Below are positions 28,803 to 63,880 of a stretch of DNA of 64,000 bases, in pieces; the first letter of the stretch is position 1; the number at the start of each line of letters is the position of its first letter. The translations under genes and the position numbers were made by a program. Under the pieces are notes generated by a model that saw only the letters and a program-made list of their open reading frames with translations, ran no database searches and was not told where the DNA came from. This stretch comes from Flavobacterium sp. 83 (GTDB lineage: Bacteria; Bacteroidota; Bacteroidia; Flavobacteriales; Flavobacteriaceae). The stretch is from positions 3,100,001-3,164,000 of the forward strand of contig NZ_JQMS01000001.1 of assembly GCF_000744835.1 (NCBI RefSeq), written 5' to 3'.

Positions 28803-29711
28803 ATGAAAACAAAATTATTTTCTTTCGTTTTGATGTTTACAGCCATTGTAAGTTTTGCGCAACAAGATGCTCAATTTACGCAATACATGTACAACACAAT
28901 TAATATTAATCCCGCTTATGCAGGATCTAGAGGTGCCTTAAGTATTTTTGCATTACATCGTACACAATGGGTGGGACTTGAAGGAGCACCGGTAACTAAC
29001 GCTGTATCCATCAATACACCACTCAACGGAAGTAATCTGGGATTGGGAGTATCAATTATAAATGATAAAATTGGCCCTACACATGAGAATACCATTTCGG
29101 CTGATTTGTCATATACAATTCCTACTTCAGAGACTTTTAAACTTTCCTTTGGAATTAAAGCAACTGCTAACATATTTGATTTGGATGTTTCTCGCTTGAA
29201 TCCTGTTGATGACGATCCAAGCCTACACGATTTCAGTAATAAATTCACTCCAAATATTGGTGCCGGTGTCTATTTGCATTCTAATAAAGCCTACGTGGGA
29301 TTCTCTGTTCCTAATTTTATTCAAACAAATCGATATGATGATAATGAAGTAGCCATTTTTAAAGAAAAAATTAATTACTACTTAATTGCCGGTTATGTAT
29401 TTGATTTGAATGATTATATAAAATTCAAACCAGCAGTACTTGCAAAAATGGTAGAAGGAGCGCCTCTTCAAGCTGATGTGTCAGGAAATTTTATGTTTAA
29501 TGATAAGTTTGTGGTGGGAGTAGCTTATAGATGGAGTGCGGCGCTAAGTGCCATGGTTGGATTTCAGGTTTCTGAAGGTTTGTATATTGGATACGGATAT
29601 GATCATGAAACAACCAATTTAGACCATTATAATTCTGGTTCTCACGAGATTTTCTTGCGCTATGAATTATTCAAAAACAATAATAAAATCACAACACCAA
29701 GATTCTTCTAA
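28803..29711 (+). CDS. PorP/SprF family type IX secretion outer-membrane protein, copy 1
   Basis: This 302-residue protein has a signal peptide (LFSFVLMFTAIVSFAQ) followed by QDAQFTQYMYNTININPAYAGSRGA, cut here to its core TININPAYAGS, the signature start of the PorP/SprF family. The rest is strand-rich and ends with an outer-membrane barrel-like segment. In F. johnsoniae, SprF is needed for secretion of the adhesin SprB encoded just upstream. The same gene order here (giant type B cargo, then PorP/SprF) argues that this protein secretes or anchors the upstream giant protein. It is 62 bases downstream of the giant gene, with a hairpin between them. The protein sequence appears identical to the copy at 40703-41611. 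Confidence 0.92.
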   Translation: MKTKLFSFVLMFTAIVSFAQQDAQFTQYMYNTININPAYAGSRGALSIFALHRTQWVGLEGAPVTNAVSINTPLNGSNLGLGVSIINDKIGPTHENTISADLSYTIPTSETFKLSFGIKATANIFDLDVSRLNPVDDDPSLHDFSNKFTPNIGAGVYLHSNKAYVGFSVPNFIQTNRYDDNEVAIFKEKINYYLIAGYVFDLNDYIKFKPAVLAKMVEGAPLQADVSGNFMFNDKFVVGVAYRWSAALSAMVGFQVSEGLYIGYGYDHETTNLDHYNSGSHEIFLRYELFKNNNKITTPRFF

Positions 29712-29722
29712 AAATAATTATT

Positions 29723-31663
29723 ATGAAAAATAATATACTCCTTTATATAACAATAATAAGTGTTTTTTCTTTTAATACTTATTCCCAAAAAGCTAAATTG
29801 GCTGCAGCTGATAAAAAGTACGACAACTATGCCTACGTAGATGCCATAAAAACTTATGAAAGGGTTGCCGAAAAAGGATACAAATCAGCTGATATGTTTA
29901 AAAAATTGGGGAACGCCTATTACTTCAATGCGGAGTTAGACAAAGCAGCTAAATGGTATGGGGAATTATTTGCCATGAATACCCCAGATTTAGAACCTGA
30001 ATACTACTATCGCTATGCTCAGTCTTTAAGATCTATTGGTCAAAATGATAAAGCGAATGAAATGTTAGAATTATTCAATCAAAAACTAGGAAACGACAAT
30101 AGAGGTAAAATTTTCAAACAAAATACCAATTATTTAGAAGCCATTAAAGCCAATTCAGGAAGATATCAAGTAGAAGATGCAGGTATCAACTCTAAATACT
30201 CTGATTATGGAACAACTGTATATTTAAACAAAATAGTATTTGCTACCGCAAGAGATACTGGAAGTTTAGGACATCGAAAACACACATGGACCAATCAATA
30301 TTTTACTAATTTATATTCTGCTGATTTAGGAGATAACATGACTCTTGGCTCCCCACACAAGTTTAGTGAATCTATAAATTCGAAATTTCATGAATCTACA
30401 CCTGCCTTTACTAATGATGGAAAAACTATGTATTTTACCCGAAACAATTATTTAGACGGTAAAAAGGGGAAAAATGGAAATAAAATTACGCTGGTAAAAA
30501 TATATAAAGCCAGTTTAGAAAATGATAAATGGGTAAATGTAACTGAATTACCTTTTGACAGTGATAATTACAGCACTGCTCATCCTGCCTTAAGCCCTGA
30601 TGGGAAAACATTATATTTTGCGTCAGATATGCCCGGAACAATAGGACAATCTGATTTATTTAAAGTAAAAATAAATGATGATGCCACTTTTGGTACTCCA
30701 GAAAACTTAGGAAATACAATCAATACTGAAGGAAGAGAAACCTTCCCTTTTGTAAATGATGAAAATGAAATTTATTTTGCATCTGACGGACATCCAGGTC
30801 TTGGAGGTTTAGATGTTTTTGTATCCAAAATAAATCCTGATGGGACTTTCAGCGAGGTTCAAAATGTGGGAGAAAATGTTAATTCTCCCAAAGATGATTT
30901 TGCTTATTTAATAGACACAAAATCAAGAAGAGGCTTTTTTAGCTCCAATAGAGATGGTGGACAAGGATACGATGATATTTATAAGTTTTTAGAAACCAAA
31001 AGACTTACTTGTGAACAACTTTTATATGGTGAAATTACTGACTTAACTACAGCAGAATTGCTTTCAGATGCTAAAGTCACTTTATATGATAGTCAATTTA
31101 ATTTAGTGAGCACTACTACTTCTGATGCAAAAGGGAATTATTCTTTTACTGTGGAATGTGGAAAAACTTATAATGTAAGAGCTGAAAAAACAGAGTTTAC
31201 TACCAAAGAACAAAAAATCACTATAGCCAGCAATAAAGGAAAAACATATTTACCAATCGCATTGGAAAAAGAAAAATGTAAAGTAACAGTGGGTGATGAT
31301 CTAGGTAAATGCTTTGGTATAAAAATGATCTACTTTGACTTTGATAAATCGAATATCAGAGTAGAAGCATCTATTGATTTAGAAAAAATATTAGATGTAA
31401 TGAGTCAATATCCAACTATGAAACTTGATATACGCTCCCATACTGATAGCCGTGGCACTTTCAAATACAATGAAGAATTATCAGATAGAAGGGCTAAGTC
31501 TACTATAAACTGGTTAATAAAAAATGGTGTTGATTCAAGCAGATTGACTGGTAAAGGATATGGTGAATCACAATTAGTGAATAAATGTAGCGATGCCATA
31601 GAATGTAATGAAGATGAACATCAACTTAACAGACGTAGCGAGTTTATAATTACTGCTTTGTAA
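29723..31663 (+). CDS. TPR/PD40/OmpA-family protein (PorE-like), copy 1
   Basis: This 646-residue protein has a signal peptide (about 1-21, ending NTYSQ), a TPR-like region (25-140; AIKTYERVAEKGYKSADMF) and a PD40 beta-propeller (about 150-410; TPAFTNDGKTMYFTR, HPALSPDGKTLYFAS). A carboxypeptidase-regulatory-like domain follows (about 430-510; TLYDSQFNLVSTTTSDAKGN), then a C-terminal OmpA peptidoglycan-binding domain (MIYFDFDKSNIRVEA, DIRSHTDSRGTFKYNEELSD). This order matches PorE-like periplasmic proteins of the type IX system, which link outer-membrane parts to the cell wall. It starts 11 bases after the PorP/SprF gene. It differs from the copy at 41623 at seven residues. Confidence 0.9.
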   Translation: MKNNILLYITIISVFSFNTYSQKAKLAAADKKYDNYAYVDAIKTYERVAEKGYKSADMFKKLGNAYYFNAELDKAAKWYGELFAMNTPDLEPEYYYRYAQSLRSIGQNDKANEMLELFNQKLGNDNRGKIFKQNTNYLEAIKANSGRYQVEDAGINSKYSDYGTTVYLNKIVFATARDTGSLGHRKHTWTNQYFTNLYSADLGDNMTLGSPHKFSESINSKFHESTPAFTNDGKTMYFTRNNYLDGKKGKNGNKITLVKIYKASLENDKWVNVTELPFDSDNYSTAHPALSPDGKTLYFASDMPGTIGQSDLFKVKINDDATFGTPENLGNTINTEGRETFPFVNDENEIYFASDGHPGLGGLDVFVSKINPDGTFSEVQNVGENVNSPKDDFAYLIDTKSRRGFFSSNRDGGQGYDDIYKFLETKRLTCEQLLYGEITDLTTAELLSDAKVTLYDSQFNLVSTTTSDAKGNYSFTVECGKTYNVRAEKTEFTTKEQKITIASNKGKTYLPIALEKEKCKVTVGDDLGKCFGIKMIYFDFDKSNIRVEASIDLEKILDVMSQYPTMKLDIRSHTDSRGTFKYNEELSDRRAKSTINWLIKNGVDSSRLTGKGYGESQLVNKCSDAIECNEDEHQLNRRSEFIITAL

Positions 31664-40702: not shown

Positions 40703-41611
40703 ATGAAAACAAAATTATTTTCTTTCGTTTTGATGTTTACAGCCATTGTAAGTTTTGCGCAACAAGATGCTCAATTTACGCAATACATGTACAACACAAT
40801 TAATATTAATCCCGCTTATGCAGGATCTAGAGGTGCCTTAAGTATTTTTGCATTACATCGTACACAATGGGTGGGACTTGAAGGAGCACCGGTAACTAAC
40901 GCTGTATCCATCAATACACCACTCAACGGAAGTAATCTGGGATTGGGAGTATCAATTATAAATGATAAAATTGGCCCTACACATGAGAATACCATTTCGG
41001 CTGATTTGTCATATACAATTCCTACTTCAGAGACTTTTAAACTTTCCTTTGGAATTAAAGCAACTGCTAACATATTTGATTTGGATGTTTCTCGCTTGAA
41101 TCCTGTTGATGACGATCCAAGCCTACACGATTTCAGTAATAAATTCACTCCAAATATTGGTGCCGGTGTCTATTTGCATTCTAATAAAGCCTACGTGGGA
41201 TTCTCTGTTCCTAATTTTATTCAAACAAATCGATATGATGATAATGAAGTAGCCATTTTTAAAGAAAAAATTAATTACTACTTAATTGCCGGTTATGTAT
41301 TTGATTTGAATGATTATATAAAATTCAAACCAGCAGTACTTGCAAAAATGGTAGAAGGAGCGCCTCTTCAAGCTGATGTGTCAGGAAATTTTATGTTTAA
41401 TGATAAGTTTGTGGTGGGAGTAGCTTATAGATGGAGTGCGGCGCTAAGTGCCATGGTTGGATTTCAGGTTTCTGAAGGTTTGTATATTGGATACGGATAT
41501 GATCATGAAACAACCAATTTAGACCATTATAATTCTGGTTCTCACGAGATTTTCTTGCGCTATGAATTATTCAAAAACAATAATAAAATCACAACACCAA
41601 GATTCTTCTAA
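40703..41611 (+). CDS. PorP/SprF family type IX secretion outer-membrane protein, copy 2
   Basis: This 302-residue protein appears identical to the product of 28803-29711: the same signal peptide, the same TININPAYAGS signature and the same strand-rich body. It follows the second giant gene by 158 bases, a longer spacer than in copy 1, containing a hairpin and about 95 bases of unrelated sequence. It is the presumed secretion or anchoring partner for the upstream giant protein. Because both copies are the same, either could serve both cargos; the shared C-terminal sorting domains of the two giant proteins would fit that. Confidence 0.92.
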   Translation: MKTKLFSFVLMFTAIVSFAQQDAQFTQYMYNTININPAYAGSRGALSIFALHRTQWVGLEGAPVTNAVSINTPLNGSNLGLGVSIINDKIGPTHENTISADLSYTIPTSETFKLSFGIKATANIFDLDVSRLNPVDDDPSLHDFSNKFTPNIGAGVYLHSNKAYVGFSVPNFIQTNRYDDNEVAIFKEKINYYLIAGYVFDLNDYIKFKPAVLAKMVEGAPLQADVSGNFMFNDKFVVGVAYRWSAALSAMVGFQVSEGLYIGYGYDHETTNLDHYNSGSHEIFLRYELFKNNNKITTPRFF

Positions 41612-41622
41612 AAATAATTATT

Positions 41623-43563
41623 ATGAAAAATAATATACTCCTTTATATAACAATAATAAGTGTTTTTTCTTTTAATACTTATTCCCAAAAAGCTAAATTG
41701 GCTGCAGCTGATAAAAAGTACGACAACTATGCCTACGTAGATGCCATAAAAACTTATGAAAGGGTTGCCGAAAAAGGATACAAATCAGCTGATATGTTTA
41801 AAAAATTGGGGAACGCCTATTACTTCAATGCGGAGTTAGACAAAGCAGCTAAATGGTATGGGGAATTATTTGCCATGAATACCCCAGATTTAGAACCTGA
41901 ATACTACTATCGCTATGCTCAGTCTTTAAGATCTATTGGTCAAAATGATAAAGCGAATGAAATGTTAGAATTATTCAATCAAAAACTAGGAAACGACAAT
42001 AGAGGTAAAATTTTCAAACAAAATACCAATTATTTAGAAGCCATTAAAGCCAATTCAGGAAGATATCAAGTAGAAGATGCAGGTATCAACTCTAAATACT
42101 CTGATTATGGAACAACTGTATATTTAAACAAAATAGTATTTGCTACCGCAAGAGATACTGGAAGTTTAGGACATCGAAAACACACATGGACCAATCAATA
42201 TTTTACTAATTTATATTCTGCTGATTTAGGAGATAACATGACTCCTGGCTCCCCACACAAGTTTAGTGAATCTATAAATTCGAAATTTCATGAATCTACA
42301 CCTGCCTTTACTAATGATGGAAAAACTATGTATTTTACCCGAAACAATTATTTAGACGGTAAAAAGGGGAAAAATGGAAATAAAATTACGCTGGTAAAAA
42401 TATATAAAGCCAGTTTAGAAAATGATAAATGGGTAAATGTAACTGAATTACCTTTTGACAGTGATAATTACAGCACCGCTCATCCTGCCTTAAGCCCTGA
42501 TGGGAAAACATTATATTTTGCGTCAGATATGCCCGGAACAATAGGACAATCTGATTTATTTAAAGTAAAAATAAATGATGATGCCACTTTTGGTACTCCA
42601 GAAAACTTAGGAAATACAATCAATACTGAAGGAAGAGAAACCTTCCCTTTTGTAAATGATGAAAATGAAATTTATTTTGCATCTGACGGACATCCAGGTC
42701 TTGGAGGTTTAGATGTTTTTGTATCCAAAATAAATCCTGATGGGACTTTCAGCGAGGTTCAAAATGTGGGAGAAAATGTTAATTCTCCCAAAGATGATTT
42801 TGCTTATTTAATAGACACAAAATCAAGAAGAGGCTTTTTTAGCTCCAATAGAGATGGTGGACAAGGATACGATGATATTTATAAGTTTTTAGAAACCAAA
42901 AGACTTACTTGTGAACAACTTTTATATGGTGAAATTACTGACTTAACTACAGCAGAATTGCTTTCAGATGCTAAAGTCACTTTATATGATAGTCAATTTA
43001 ATTTGGTGAGTACTACTACTTCTGATGCAAAAGGAAATTATTCTTTTACTGTTGAATGTGCAAAAACATACAATGTAAGAGCTGAAAAACCAGAATATAC
43101 TACCAAAGAGCAAAAAATCACTATTGCTAGCGATAAAGGAAAAACATATTTACCAATCGCATTGGAAAAAGAAAAATGTAAGGTAACAGTGGGTGACGAT
43201 CTAGGTAAATGCTTTGGTATAAAAATGATTTACTTTGACTTTGATAAATCGAATATCAGAGTAGAAGCAGCTATTGATTTAGAAAAAATATTAGATGTAA
43301 TGAGTCAATATCCAACTATGAAACTTGATATACGCTCCCATACTGATAGCCGTGGCACTTTCAAATACAATGAAGAATTATCAGATAGAAGGGCTAAGTC
43401 TACTATAAACTGGTTAATAAAAAATGGTGTTGATTCAAGCAGATTGACTGGTAAAGGATATGGTGAATCACAATTAGTGAATAAATGTAGCGATGCCATA
43501 GAATGTACTGAAGATGAACATCAACTTAACAGACGTAGCGAGTTTATAATTACCGCTTTGTAA
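41623..43563 (+). CDS. TPR/PD40/OmpA-family protein (PorE-like), copy 2
   Basis: This 646-residue protein has the same domain order as the copy at 29723: signal peptide, TPR-like region, PD40 propeller, carboxypeptidase-regulatory-like domain and OmpA domain. I count seven amino-acid differences. One is Leu to Pro in the propeller (TPGSPH); the rest lie in the C-terminal third, for example CAKTYNVRAEKPEY against CGKTYNVRAEKTEF, and ECTEDE against ECNEDE. It starts 11 bases after the PorP/SprF gene and is the last gene of the second adhesin operon, ended by the terminator at 43580-43612. Confidence 0.9.
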   Translation: MKNNILLYITIISVFSFNTYSQKAKLAAADKKYDNYAYVDAIKTYERVAEKGYKSADMFKKLGNAYYFNAELDKAAKWYGELFAMNTPDLEPEYYYRYAQSLRSIGQNDKANEMLELFNQKLGNDNRGKIFKQNTNYLEAIKANSGRYQVEDAGINSKYSDYGTTVYLNKIVFATARDTGSLGHRKHTWTNQYFTNLYSADLGDNMTPGSPHKFSESINSKFHESTPAFTNDGKTMYFTRNNYLDGKKGKNGNKITLVKIYKASLENDKWVNVTELPFDSDNYSTAHPALSPDGKTLYFASDMPGTIGQSDLFKVKINDDATFGTPENLGNTINTEGRETFPFVNDENEIYFASDGHPGLGGLDVFVSKINPDGTFSEVQNVGENVNSPKDDFAYLIDTKSRRGFFSSNRDGGQGYDDIYKFLETKRLTCEQLLYGEITDLTTAELLSDAKVTLYDSQFNLVSTTTSDAKGNYSFTVECAKTYNVRAEKPEYTTKEQKITIASDKGKTYLPIALEKEKCKVTVGDDLGKCFGIKMIYFDFDKSNIRVEAAIDLEKILDVMSQYPTMKLDIRSHTDSRGTFKYNEELSDRRAKSTINWLIKNGVDSSRLTGKGYGESQLVNKCSDAIECTEDEHQLNRRSEFIITAL

Positions 43564-60918: not shown

Positions 60919-60974
60919 ATACCAACTGTACTTTATTTTAAACCAACGACATAATTTTGTCAACAATACGTTTT
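60919..60974 (-). promoter_or_regulatory. LytTR-type operator upstream of susC
   Basis: On the minus strand GTCGTTGGT (60950-60942) and ACAGTTGGT (60929-60921) form two 9-bp direct repeats with a 12-base spacer; the second fits the LytTR consensus [TA][AC][CA]GTTN[AG][TG] exactly. The whole 56-base segment aligns without gaps to 56033-56088. It is 66 bases before the susC start and about 160 bases from the divergent kinase gene. Confidence 0.7.
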
Positions 60975-61130: not shown

Positions 61131-62207
61131 GTGCGTAAAAAAAAAGAAATGAAATTCGATATCAGCCTTCAAAACCATTTTGGGTTTTGGGGATTGTTTT
61201 TTTTAATGAACTTTCTTCGTTGGGGCGCTTATTTTAATGATTATGGCTATTCATTAAAATCAAATATTTTAGAATTTTCACTTCACATTCCATTAGTATA
61301 TTTCAATCTATATTTCCTTATACCTCGCTATGTATTAACTTCAAAATATTTTAAATATAGTTTAGGATTACTTTTGAGTTTAATGATGGTTTATTTATTG
61401 AAAACTGAATTAACCTATTATATCATTTCTGAAGATATTTGGCCAGAAGCTAACAGAGAATACAAACCTTTTGAATTGAATCATATTGTAGCTGTATGTA
61501 TTGGTGAAATTTATGTCCTTGCAATAGCATCTTCGGTATATTTAACTTTAATCTGGCTTAAGGAAAGGGAACGAAATAGAGCCATAAAAGAAAATCAATC
61601 TAAAATTGAATTGAAATATTTAAAAAATCAAATTCAGCCTCATTTCTTCTTTAATACTTTAAATAATTTGTATGCTCTATCACTTGAATCCTCTGATAAA
61701 GTTCCAGATGTGATTATAAAGCTTTCAAAATTGATGGAATATGTTCTCTACGATATTGAAGGAACTAAATTTGTTCCTTTGATAAATGAAATTAATTATA
61801 TTCAGAATTATATTGAAATCGAAAAACTTCGTTTTGAAAACGTAGAAGTAGCCATAAATATAGATTCTAATATTGATGAAATTAAAGTTCCACCTTTACT
61901 TTTTATATCTCTGGTAGAAAATGCCTTTAAACATGGTGGCATAAATAATAGCAACCTTAAAATAAAAATTAACTGTAAAGTTATTAATGGAACTGTCTTG
62001 AGTTTTGAAATTCTGAATAATTTTGTACTTTCACAGCATACAAAAACAAAAAAAGGTATTGGTCTAATAAACACTAAGAAGCGGTTGAAATTAATTTTCA
62101 AAAACCATTACACTTTCAAACATAAAGTAAAGTTCAATTATTATATCATCTCTTTACAAATACCTATTTATAACCCGTTGGGTGCAATTAGATTATTTGT
62201 GTTTTAA
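61131..62207 (+). CDS. LytS/YehU-type sensor histidine kinase, C-terminus altered by IS
   Basis: This is a 358-residue kinase with about four membrane helices in the first 140 residues and then a His_kinase domain with LKNQIQPHFFFNTLNNLYAL (phosphoacceptor His) and the ATPase N box LLFISLVENAFKHGG. The start is GTG at 61131; an in-frame ATG at 61149 is equally possible. The last residues PLGAIRLFVF are encoded by the insertion sequence. Removing the IS restores IYNED and a stop that overlaps the regulator ATG by 11 bases, so only two residues were lost and ten gained. The kinase domain is intact and probably works. It should sense sugar availability for the divergent susCD and nagB genes. Confidence 0.9.
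   Translation: MRKKKEMKFDISLQNHFGFWGLFFLMNFLRWGAYFNDYGYSLKSNILEFSLHIPLVYFNLYFLIPRYVLTSKYFKYSLGLLLSLMMVYLLKTELTYYIISEDIWPEANREYKPFELNHIVAVCIGEIYVLAIASSVYLTLIWLKERERNRAIKENQSKIELKYLKNQIQPHFFFNTLNNLYALSLESSDKVPDVIIKLSKLMEYVLYDIEGTKFVPLINEINYIQNYIEIEKLRFENVEVAINIDSNIDEIKVPPLLFISLVENAFKHGGINNSNLKIKINCKVINGTVLSFEILNNFVLSQHTKTKKGIGLINTKKRLKLIFKNHYTFKHKVKFNYYIISLQIPIYNPLGAIRLFVF
62165..62172. repeat. 8-bp target site duplication, left
   Basis: TATTTATA directly precedes the left inverted repeat of the IS; the same 8 bases follow its right end at 63171-63178. Both copies flank the element exactly. Confidence 0.9.
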
Positions 62208-63072
62208 TATTGTTTATTGGTCTTTCAAAAATAAATTTATTAATGAATTGTACCAAAGTTAATGCTGTTATTTTAGCTAAAATTCTTGTTTTAAAACCTT
62301 GAAAAGATTTAGCATAATTTCGTCTAATCATAAATTGATCACACAATTGAGAGAATAATGTCTCTATTCTTTTTCTTGATTTTCTAAATATGTAGGGTTG
62401 TTTTTTATACCCAATTTGATTGATTCTCATTGGAGTTTCTAATTTTATATTTGCTGTTTCAAACAAATCTAATTGTAATGGTGAAGACAAATAACCTCTA
62501 TCTCCAAGAAGCACACAATCAGACATTTGATATTTTAAATCTTTTAATAAATGTACATCGTGAACACTTGCTTTTGTAATATCTATTGATTGAAAAACCC
62601 CAGAAACAGTACAAACTCCGTGAAGTTTGTAACCATAAAACCAAGAGTTTTGTGATGCACAAAAACCTTTATCTGGCGCAGTCTGAAAATCACCCTTACA
62701 AATTTTAATCCTATTATGACGAGCCATTTTACAAATCTCAAGTGGCATACTATCAACAACAAAATAGTTCTCAAATTCTGTGAATTTTGAATATAAATGT
62801 TGTCTGATTTCTTCAGCAAAATGGAATAATTTTTTCCTTCTCTTATTATACTGACTTCGTTCAATTAGATTAGAAATTTGTCCATTTTGCAACTGATTAA
62901 AAAATGAATTTTCACTGTCAATAGACATAAATTCAGATGTTAAACTTAAAGCAACTACTTCTAAATCAGACATTTTAAACTTTCTTCCAGCTCGAATTTC
63001 TGTATTAAATGCAATATTCAAAGAACTTATAACTTCTAAAACTCTAAAATAATTTTTTACTATATTTGACAT
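62188..63072 (-). CDS. IS982 family transposase
   Basis: This 294-residue transposase has an N-terminal helical DNA-binding part (SDLEVVALSLTSEFMSID is typical of IS982) and a DDE RNase-H-like core, with the first Asp in FVVDSMPLEICK (about 109), the second in VLLGDRGYLSSPLQ and the Glu in RKRIETLFSQLCDQF. It cuts and joins the element's ends. The reading frame is full length without frameshifts. Its stop lies within 20 bases of the end of the kinase ORF, which it overlaps convergently. A long hairpin upstream of its start could limit translation from read-through transcripts. Confidence 0.93.
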   Translation of the reverse strand: MSNIVKNYFRVLEVISSLNIAFNTEIRAGRKFKMSDLEVVALSLTSEFMSIDSENSFFNQLQNGQISNLIERSQYNKRRKKLFHFAEEIRQHLYSKFTEFENYFVVDSMPLEICKMARHNRIKICKGDFQTAPDKGFCASQNSWFYGYKLHGVCTVSGVFQSIDITKASVHDVHLLKDLKYQMSDCVLLGDRGYLSSPLQLDLFETANIKLETPMRINQIGYKKQPYIFRKSRKRIETLFSQLCDQFMIRRNYAKSFQGFKTRILAKITALTLVQFINKFIFERPINNIKTQII

Positions 63073-63073
63073 A

Positions 63074-63129
63074 GATATTGGTTGTTTGACGACTTCAAGA
63101 TACTGAATTTCAGTATCTTGACCAATATC
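63074..63129. repeat. Long hairpin in the transposase leader
   Basis: TCAAGATACTGAA (63095-63107) and its complement (63109-63121) form a 27-base palindrome around a single T. Outside it GATATTGG (63074-63081) pairs with CCAATATC (63122-63129). The structure starts two bases before the transposase start codon and could hide the start region in mRNA that enters from outside. Confidence 0.65.
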
Positions 63130-63170
63130 TAATCAATATTTTTTACTTCAAATAATTACACCCAACGGGT

Positions 63171-63178
63171 TATTTATA
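63171..63178. repeat. 8-bp target site duplication, right
   Basis: TATTTATA directly follows the right inverted repeat and directly precedes the ATG of the regulator gene at 63179. The duplication therefore preserved the bases just before the start codon. Confidence 0.9.
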
Positions 63179-63880
63179 ATGAAGATTAAATGTGTTTTAG
63201 TAGATGATGAACCATTAGCTATAAAAGTCCTTCAGAATTATTTTATCAATTTTTCGGATTTTGAAATTATTGGTACCTTTAGCAATGCACTGGAAGCACT
63301 GGAGTTTATCAATAACAATAGTGTAGATGCCGTATTTCTCGACATCAACATGCCTATGATGACAGGTTTTGAATTGATCCGATTAATAGAGTATAAAACT
63401 AAAACTGTAATCACCACAGCCTTTAGGGAATTTGCTGCCGAAAGCTACGAATTAGACGTTTTAGACTATTTAGTAAAGCCAATCCCATTACCCCGATTTA
63501 TTAAATGCATCAATAGGATTTCAACAGAAATCAATTTAAAGAATACTATTAAAACGGAGATGCATCGAATCGAACCCCATATTTTTATCAAAGTAGATAA
63601 AAAAATGGTAAAAATAACAATAGATGAAATTCTGTTTATCGAAGGAATGAAAGAATACATAAAGGTTGTGACTATTGACAAAACCTATATTACACACAAG
63701 TCATTAACTTCATTATCCGAGGAGTTACCATTGGATCGATTTGTAAGAATCCATAAATCATACACTATTGCCATTGACAAAATAAAATCTATTGAGGGGA
63801 ACCGAATCCAAATACTTTCTTACACTTTACCTATAGGACGAAATTACAGTAAAGATGTAAAAAGTAAAATTTTAGAATAA
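63179..63880 (+). CDS. LytTR-family response regulator
   Basis: This 233-residue protein has a receiver domain with VLVDDEPLAIKVL, phosphoacceptor Asp55 in VFLDINMPMMTG, the TTA of VITTAF and Lys in YLVKPIPL. A C-terminal LytTR DNA-binding domain follows (about 138-233; FIKVDKKMVKI, EILFIEGMKEYIKV, FVRIHKSYTIAIDKI, LPIGRNY). LytTR domains bind paired 9-bp repeats about 12 bp apart; such pairs lie upstream of susC and nagB. Before the IS insertion its ATG overlapped the kinase gene. Now it relies on read-through across the IS or on a new promoter at the IS end. It is the probable regulator of the sugar locus. Confidence 0.93.
   Translation: MKIKCVLVDDEPLAIKVLQNYFINFSDFEIIGTFSNALEALEFINNNSVDAVFLDINMPMMTGFELIRLIEYKTKTVITTAFREFAAESYELDVLDYLVKPIPLPRFIKCINRISTEINLKNTIKTEMHRIEPHIFIKVDKKMVKITIDEILFIEGMKEYIKVVTIDKTYITHKSLTSLSEELPLDRFVRIHKSYTIAIDKIKSIEGNRIQILSYTLPIGRNYSKDVKSKILE

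Follow-up and report, generated by a model that had tools for sequence, protein, structure and literature searches.

Two-component systems whose sensor and regulator genes overlap are well documented (PMC3018481). The CusS/CusR pair of Flavobacterium johnsoniae (Fjoh_4563/4564) belongs to the chitin locus of that species, and deletion of cusS-cusR abolishes its growth on chitin (PMC5127042). In F. johnsoniae the -7 box of promoters has been deduced as TAHHTTTG, the -33 element being weak, and translation is favoured by adenines at positions -3, -6, -12 and -13 of the leader (PMC6847099); start sites of F. psychrophilum give TAnnTTTG (PMC9723704). Insertion sequences of the IS982 family are described as about 1 kb long, with inverted ends beginning AC and a short target duplication. 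They are known beside genes, whose expression they can raise or abolish, and in Bacteroides fragilis, a species of the same phylum as the bacterium studied here, the family member IS1187 lies just upstream of cfiA and is reported to supply a promoter with -7 and -33 motifs (PMC7335449).

The window analyzed here, a stretch of 64,000 nucleotides from Flavobacterium sp. 83, contains on its plus strand a cusS-type sensor histidine kinase gene (61149..62207, the listed ORF beginning with GTG at 61131) and a cusR-type LytTR response regulator gene (63179..63880). The kinase carries the His_kinase domain (PF06580, E 9.9e-25), with no ATPase domain reported by Pfam at E 0.001, and the regulator carries Response_reg (PF00072) and LytTR (PF04397). 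Their counterparts in F. johnsoniae CI04 share 77% (CusS) and 83% (CusR) identity with them and are accompanied by GH20, nagB, CusCD and transporter genes; judged from this similarity and neighbourhood, the two genes are orthologues of the CusS/CusR pair in the chitin locus. A first reading of this DNA, made from its letters only and hereafter the sequence-only reading, had linked the pair to chitooligosaccharides, a link that the orthology supports. The nearest named CusR, among the best 80 of 182 matches, was that of F. gawalongense (95%), and the nearest CusS, among the best 120 of 441 listed, was P0001 of Flavobacterium sp. LB3P45 (96%, with the tail IHNED); an IS-free strain of the same species was not found there.

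The locus reads GH20, nagB-like, SusD, SusC, CusS, CusR and transporter, and so shares GH20, nagB, CusCD and the downstream transporter with that of F. johnsoniae, where cusS and cusR overlap by 11 bp (strain CI04). It differs from it in that an insertion sequence separates cusS from cusR, and in lacking chitinase genes and a second CusCD pair: among the locus ORFs examined there was one CusCD pair and neither a chitinase nor a second pair. The arrangement of a complete ChiUL, with the GH18 enzymes ChiA and ChiB and two CusCD pairs, is not present here. A search of the genome for GH18 chitinases gave no match, with 6 of 14 controls detected, and GH18 is present in 9 of 12 relatives; the equivalent GH19 search, in which no control was detected, is uninformative. 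Elsewhere in the window, two giant ORFs (3848 and 2650 aa) are each followed by a pair of ORFs, at 28803-31663 and 40703-43563; the two pairs agree in the lengths of their members (302 and 646 aa), which suggests a duplication.

The element between the two genes (62173..63170, minus strand) is 998 bp long, starts with ACCC and has inverted ends of 18 bp that match, by reading, at 17 of 18 positions. Its transposase of 294 aa (62188..63072, minus strand), antisense to cusS-cusR, scored 252.3 bits (E 4.8e-75) with the NCBIfam IS982 model NF033520, for which the cut-off is 130, and matched the DDE Pfam domains PF01609 and PF13612; together with the length of about 1 kb, the ends and the short target duplications this places the element in the IS982 family. 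By its listed features ISFba2 from a Flavobacteria bacterium has the same 998-bp length and 18-bp inverted ends, whereas its transposase is given as 277 aa and its duplications as 0, against 294 aa and 7-9 bp here. The genome (3.79 Mb, one contig) contains at least eight identical full-length copies, a minimum obtained from 40 of 118 first-look candidates, and a target duplication of 7-9 bp accompanies eight of these eight copies, so the element has moved recently. The insertion at this locus is not a product of chance. In another region of the genome (L001, G000:C1:3443888-3446187) two identical copies lie in the same orientation with 304 bp between them.

The left and right target-site duplications both read TATTTATA (62165..62172 and 63171..63178), and the limits given by the sequence-only reading for the element and for its duplications proved to be exact. 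When the flanks were rejoined by script, the kinase ended in IPIYNED-stop, with the stop falling, by reading, within ATGAAGATTAA, the first 11 bases of the regulator gene; removal of the element hence restores the IYNED-stop overlapping the regulator ATG by 11 bases, as had been claimed. In place, the kinase ORF runs into the element and ends NPLGAIRLFVF, which bears out a further claim, that two native residues (ED) gave way to ten, the IS-encoded PLGAIRLFVF. The insertion had been placed in the overlap itself; the element is real, but its 8-bp target abuts the 11-bp overlap and lies outside it. The kinase stop is now 971 bases from the regulator start, and the loss of the overlap, with the break in translational coupling proposed in the same reading, follows from the sequence. 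At L005:2464-3153 another copy of the same element likewise terminates an ORF, which ends in the same PLGAIRLFVF, and the 229-aa ORF beside that copy matched no Pfam family.

The native overlap was conserved. Relatives were collected as 29 loci from a genome set (30 with our own locus, which was excluded, from the 48 genomes with a match among 199) and 80 further loci, the best 80 of 182, and the resulting 109 loci reduced to 96 distinct junctions after collapsing 13 duplicate pairs. Sister genomes without overlapping genes, named in advance by the sequence-only reading as the observation that would tell against it, were looked for, and the kinase stop was found exactly 11 bases into the regulator in 107 of the 109 loci. 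The junction with the kinase read ATGAARATTAA in 94 of 96 cases; the other two were the kinase-less loci of F. xinjiangense (L048) and F. ranwuense (L059), which were set aside. The same overlap occurred in 11/11 further orthologues (74-81% CusR identity), and among nine distant homologues (47-52%) one has a stop at that place.

The overlap is not the only part of cusS conserved at the DNA level. Within the last 250 codons of cusS 153 columns show amino-acid conservation of 95% or more, with a median modal-codon fraction of 0.68, and only seven of them are invariant in codon: -55, -54, -52, -50, -8, -7 and -2. The first four spell AATAATTT(T/C)GTAnnTTCA, which contains TAATTTTG; codons -8 and -7 are CAAATA, and codon -2 lies in the overlap. 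Among 92 full-length cusS genes the 15 five-codon windows with the highest silent-site conservation all fell on the TAATTTTG block or on the AAATACC that precedes cusR. In the window the first block occupies 62005..62034 on the plus strand and holds TAATTTTG, similar to a -7 box, at 62018-62025. In 88 of the 94 junctions a TAHHTTTG lies 155 nt upstream of cusR, the remaining six having TAATTTCG, with C for one T, and in 11 more diverged orthologues it stands at 152-155 nt in nine and is absent from two. Along 1040 nt it was the only near-fixed plus-strand TAHHTTTG (87/93, the next place reaching 10/93), and the best minus-strand place was occupied in 40/93. A -7 box of the Bacteroidetes sigma-A type thus occurs at a fixed place, and we regard the block as a candidate promoter or operator of cusR, a reading that we slightly favour, with the -33 element not established. 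Conservation continues past the box as far as about +5, further than a promoter alone would require, so the block may be an operator or an RNA element; RNAalifold, applied to the conserved cusS 3' region in 18 hand-picked junctions of the 94, found no two-sided change. A sigma-70 scan was also run, with a consensus that is unsuited to this phylum. A second TAATTTTG, at 60952 upstream of cusS, is not put forward as the main promoter, since its position is not fixed in relatives: of 76 oriented loci, 16 have any such site, and these sites are scattered.

The second conserved stretch, AAATACC at -15 to -9 before cusR, did not vary in any of the 94 distinct junctions. Ten of the 11 more diverged orthologues have it too, once three bases closer to the start, and one has AAATCCC. 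Considering the preference of F. johnsoniae for adenines at -12 and -13, this A-rich stretch is probably part of the cusR translation start, and a putative service of AAATACC in cusR translation appears reasonably probable. It could be argued that both blocks owe their conservation to the kinase protein or to codon bias and not to cusR, as the residues that they encode are conserved as well and codon -12 is also mostly ATA (77/92). Nevertheless, the Ile codon is ATA in 94/94 and the Gln codon CAA in 92/92, whereas uniformity is 38-91% in the 15 further conserved Ile columns, with ATT the commonest codon in 12, and 51-82% in the three further Gln columns; moreover, both blocks survive in loci that have lost the kinase. 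Selection on the kinase or its codons is therefore a very unlikely explanation.

The insertion separates cusR from both blocks. The sequence-only reading had pointed out, as a reassuring sign, that the regulator ATG and the eight bases before it were unchanged. That they are: the right duplication now forms -8 to -1 of cusR, the A at -3 is kept, and initiation may persist for that reason. Yet the invariant stretch at -15 to -9 has been displaced, -13 to -9 changing from ATACC to CGGGT, and the native -16 to -9 region, CAAATACC (62157..62164, plus strand), is stranded on the cusS side of the element. The promoter-like block has been displaced likewise, the distance from TAATTTTG to cusR being 155 nt in the relatives and 1161 nt here.

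Support for a probable function of the blocks outside the kinase protein comes from F. xinjiangense and F. ranwuense, which have neither susC nor susD and retain only a cusS stub at the locus together with cusR. No close CusS was found elsewhere in these two genomes (best match 33%, or none at E 1e-20). Both retain the TAATTTTG block and AAATACC, the box being in both the only plus-strand TAHHTTTG from nagB to cusR, and in F. ranwuense its spacing is reduced to 74 nt. In a cusR tree of 13 sequences the two species lie in different parts, beside relatives that bear cusS, so the kinase losses look independent. Pairwise dN/dS of cusR was 0.04-0.07 in the four closest pairs printed, three of which include a kinase-less species (0.048-0.073 in these three); such values are means over time, from which the loss cannot be dated. 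The locus may also be viewed as decaying neutrally, a chitin locus of little use in a bacterium with no chitinase, in which the insertion is inconsequential and cusSR is on its way out. The missing GH18 and second CusCD pair agree with this, as do five of the 12 relatives looked at (L160, L161, L164, L165 and L170), whose locus lacks cusS or susCD, and the early ends of the frames of P0091 and P0106. However, apart from the junction both cusS and cusR have open frames, GH20, nagB, susCD and the transporter are retained, and the dN/dS values of cusR given above also speak against it; neutral decay is accordingly a possibility to which we give somewhat less than an even chance. The short CusS proteins P0091 and P0106 are, in themselves, a sign either that kinases have decayed repeatedly or that the contigs are broken.

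The question is then what feeds cusR now. A simple scan for intrinsic terminators on the plus strand of the element found none, so that read-through into cusR is possible. A second source could be the element itself: an outward promoter in the transposase start might drive cusR, which would then be constitutive. An exact -7 box, TATATTTG, is located at 63061..63068 on the plus strand, within transposase codons 2-4 and 118 nt before cusR, and among 20 aligned leaders (that of the window and those of 19 out of 27 matches, eight partial or weak ones having been dropped) it is exact in 15, with one mismatch in four and two in one. The box sits in a segment of unusual silent-site conservation, third-position identity being 0.888 in transposase codons 1-20 and 0.660 in codons 30-290; the silent identity of codons 1-20 was the higher one in 42 of 45 pairs of ten homologues and dropped sharply after codon 20. 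IS1187 offers a precedent within the family, with the difference that it brings both motifs whereas near cusR only a -7 box was found. The match to TATATTTG is in itself weak, at least one plus-strand TAHHTTTG being present in 290 of 500 shuffles of the element, no TTG occurs 17-23 nt upstream of the box, and a TTG-requiring promoter scan of 63073-63178 gave nothing at up to one mismatch. Similarly, 21% of shuffles contain the near-miss TATTTTTT seen at 63137. Another exact plus-strand TAHHTTTG, at 62446, has a TTG 23 nt before it, although 86 of 500 shuffles equal it and a matching -7 was seen in 2 of 10 homologues. The IS-borne promoter suggested by the sequence-only reading thus stands as far as an exact box facing cusR and conserved in IS relatives, but the scans that require TTG lent it nothing. 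An outward RNA may, besides, be a short, structured antisense transcript that ends at the hairpin and T-run at 63139-63144, before cusR. A constitutive cusR driven from the transposase start is less likely than not. As immediate sources, read-through and the outward box each seem possible, both with a little less than even chances; the outward box, the 62446 box and the missing simple terminator leave room for full expression of cusR.

The conservation of this end of the element could have a reason of its own. A nested hairpin, conserved in homologues, spans the transposase start (63072..63131), with fold z values of -6.6 on the minus strand and -6.7 on the plus strand (-6.0 for 63073-63150, plus). 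Paired changes in the stem were modest (eight cells, a value as high as this in 2 of 500 shuffles) and the number of pairs was ordinary (259/500); Rfam on 62100-63300 gave no match up to E 1. A start five bases past the box (about 63073) would coincide with the first hairpin base, antisense to the transposase start, and a candidate outward RNA from there would carry the hairpin as its 5' end. In IS10, which belongs to another IS family, an outward promoter at the transposase start produces RNA-OUT, which forms a stem-loop and is antisense to RNA-IN, the transposase leader. That layout would match the present IS end, where a conserved outward box and a conserved fold lie at the transposase start and no Rfam family matches. 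By analogy it looks like a candidate for RNA-OUT-type antisense control of the transposase, although transposase binding or exchange between elements could also cause the conservation. As a separate observation, over 63011-63131 the leader hairpin and the first 20 codons are conserved at the DNA level far above the remainder of the gene. Many Flavobacterium genomes contain short pieces that resemble mainly the transposase start (about IS bases 76-164), the frame being broken in several; the outward box is kept in 12 of the 16 examined (L215, L216, L218-L220, L223, L225, L226, L178 and L182-L184) and absent from L217, L221, L222 and L224.

The insertion and the conservation of the overlap and of both elements are observed directly. 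The explanation that we slightly favour is that an IS982-family element, active until recently, inserted in the 8 bp immediately ahead of cusR, within a chitin/GlcNAc locus that is reduced, and cut cusR from its putative native cis-signals in cusS. CusS retains nearly all of its sequence and gains a ten-residue tail, and CusR retains its entire coding sequence and the last eight bases of its leader. Three native inputs would be lost to cusR, namely the overlap with cusS, the stretch at -15 to -9 and the nearness of the promoter-like box, and its output would be uncoupled from cusS and probably lower. For Flavobacterium as a whole a wider picture may be drawn, to which we give nearly, but not quite, an even chance: a promoter or operator of cusR and a translation-start signal would be held in silent positions of the cusS 3' end, kinase-less lineages would have kept the stub as a leader, and CusR would have a role independent of CusS; the element would remove precisely these signals, with both proteins left almost whole, and may substitute for them the outward promoter of an antisense RNA that controls the transposase.

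In the open-licence literature no report was found of an internal cusR promoter, of an IS at an overlap of two-component genes in Flavobacterium or, at the level of titles and the beginnings of abstracts, of an antisense RNA of IS982 itself; the part of PMC7335449 that treats IS982 insertions does not use the word antisense. The insertion is ordinary, IS insertions between genes being common, and the conserved cusS elements are new, interesting and testable leads. What the insertion points to here is a hidden cis-element, that is, dual coding in a kinase gene, which seems to give the regulator of a polysaccharide locus its own expression unit. If true, this accounts for the survival of the regulator after the loss of its kinase, and it shows where to seek regulation in overlapping sensor/regulator pairs, for which translational coupling is the first assumption. 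The outward box and hairpin of the element would, in turn, provide a subgroup of IS982 with an antisense control that can be tested.
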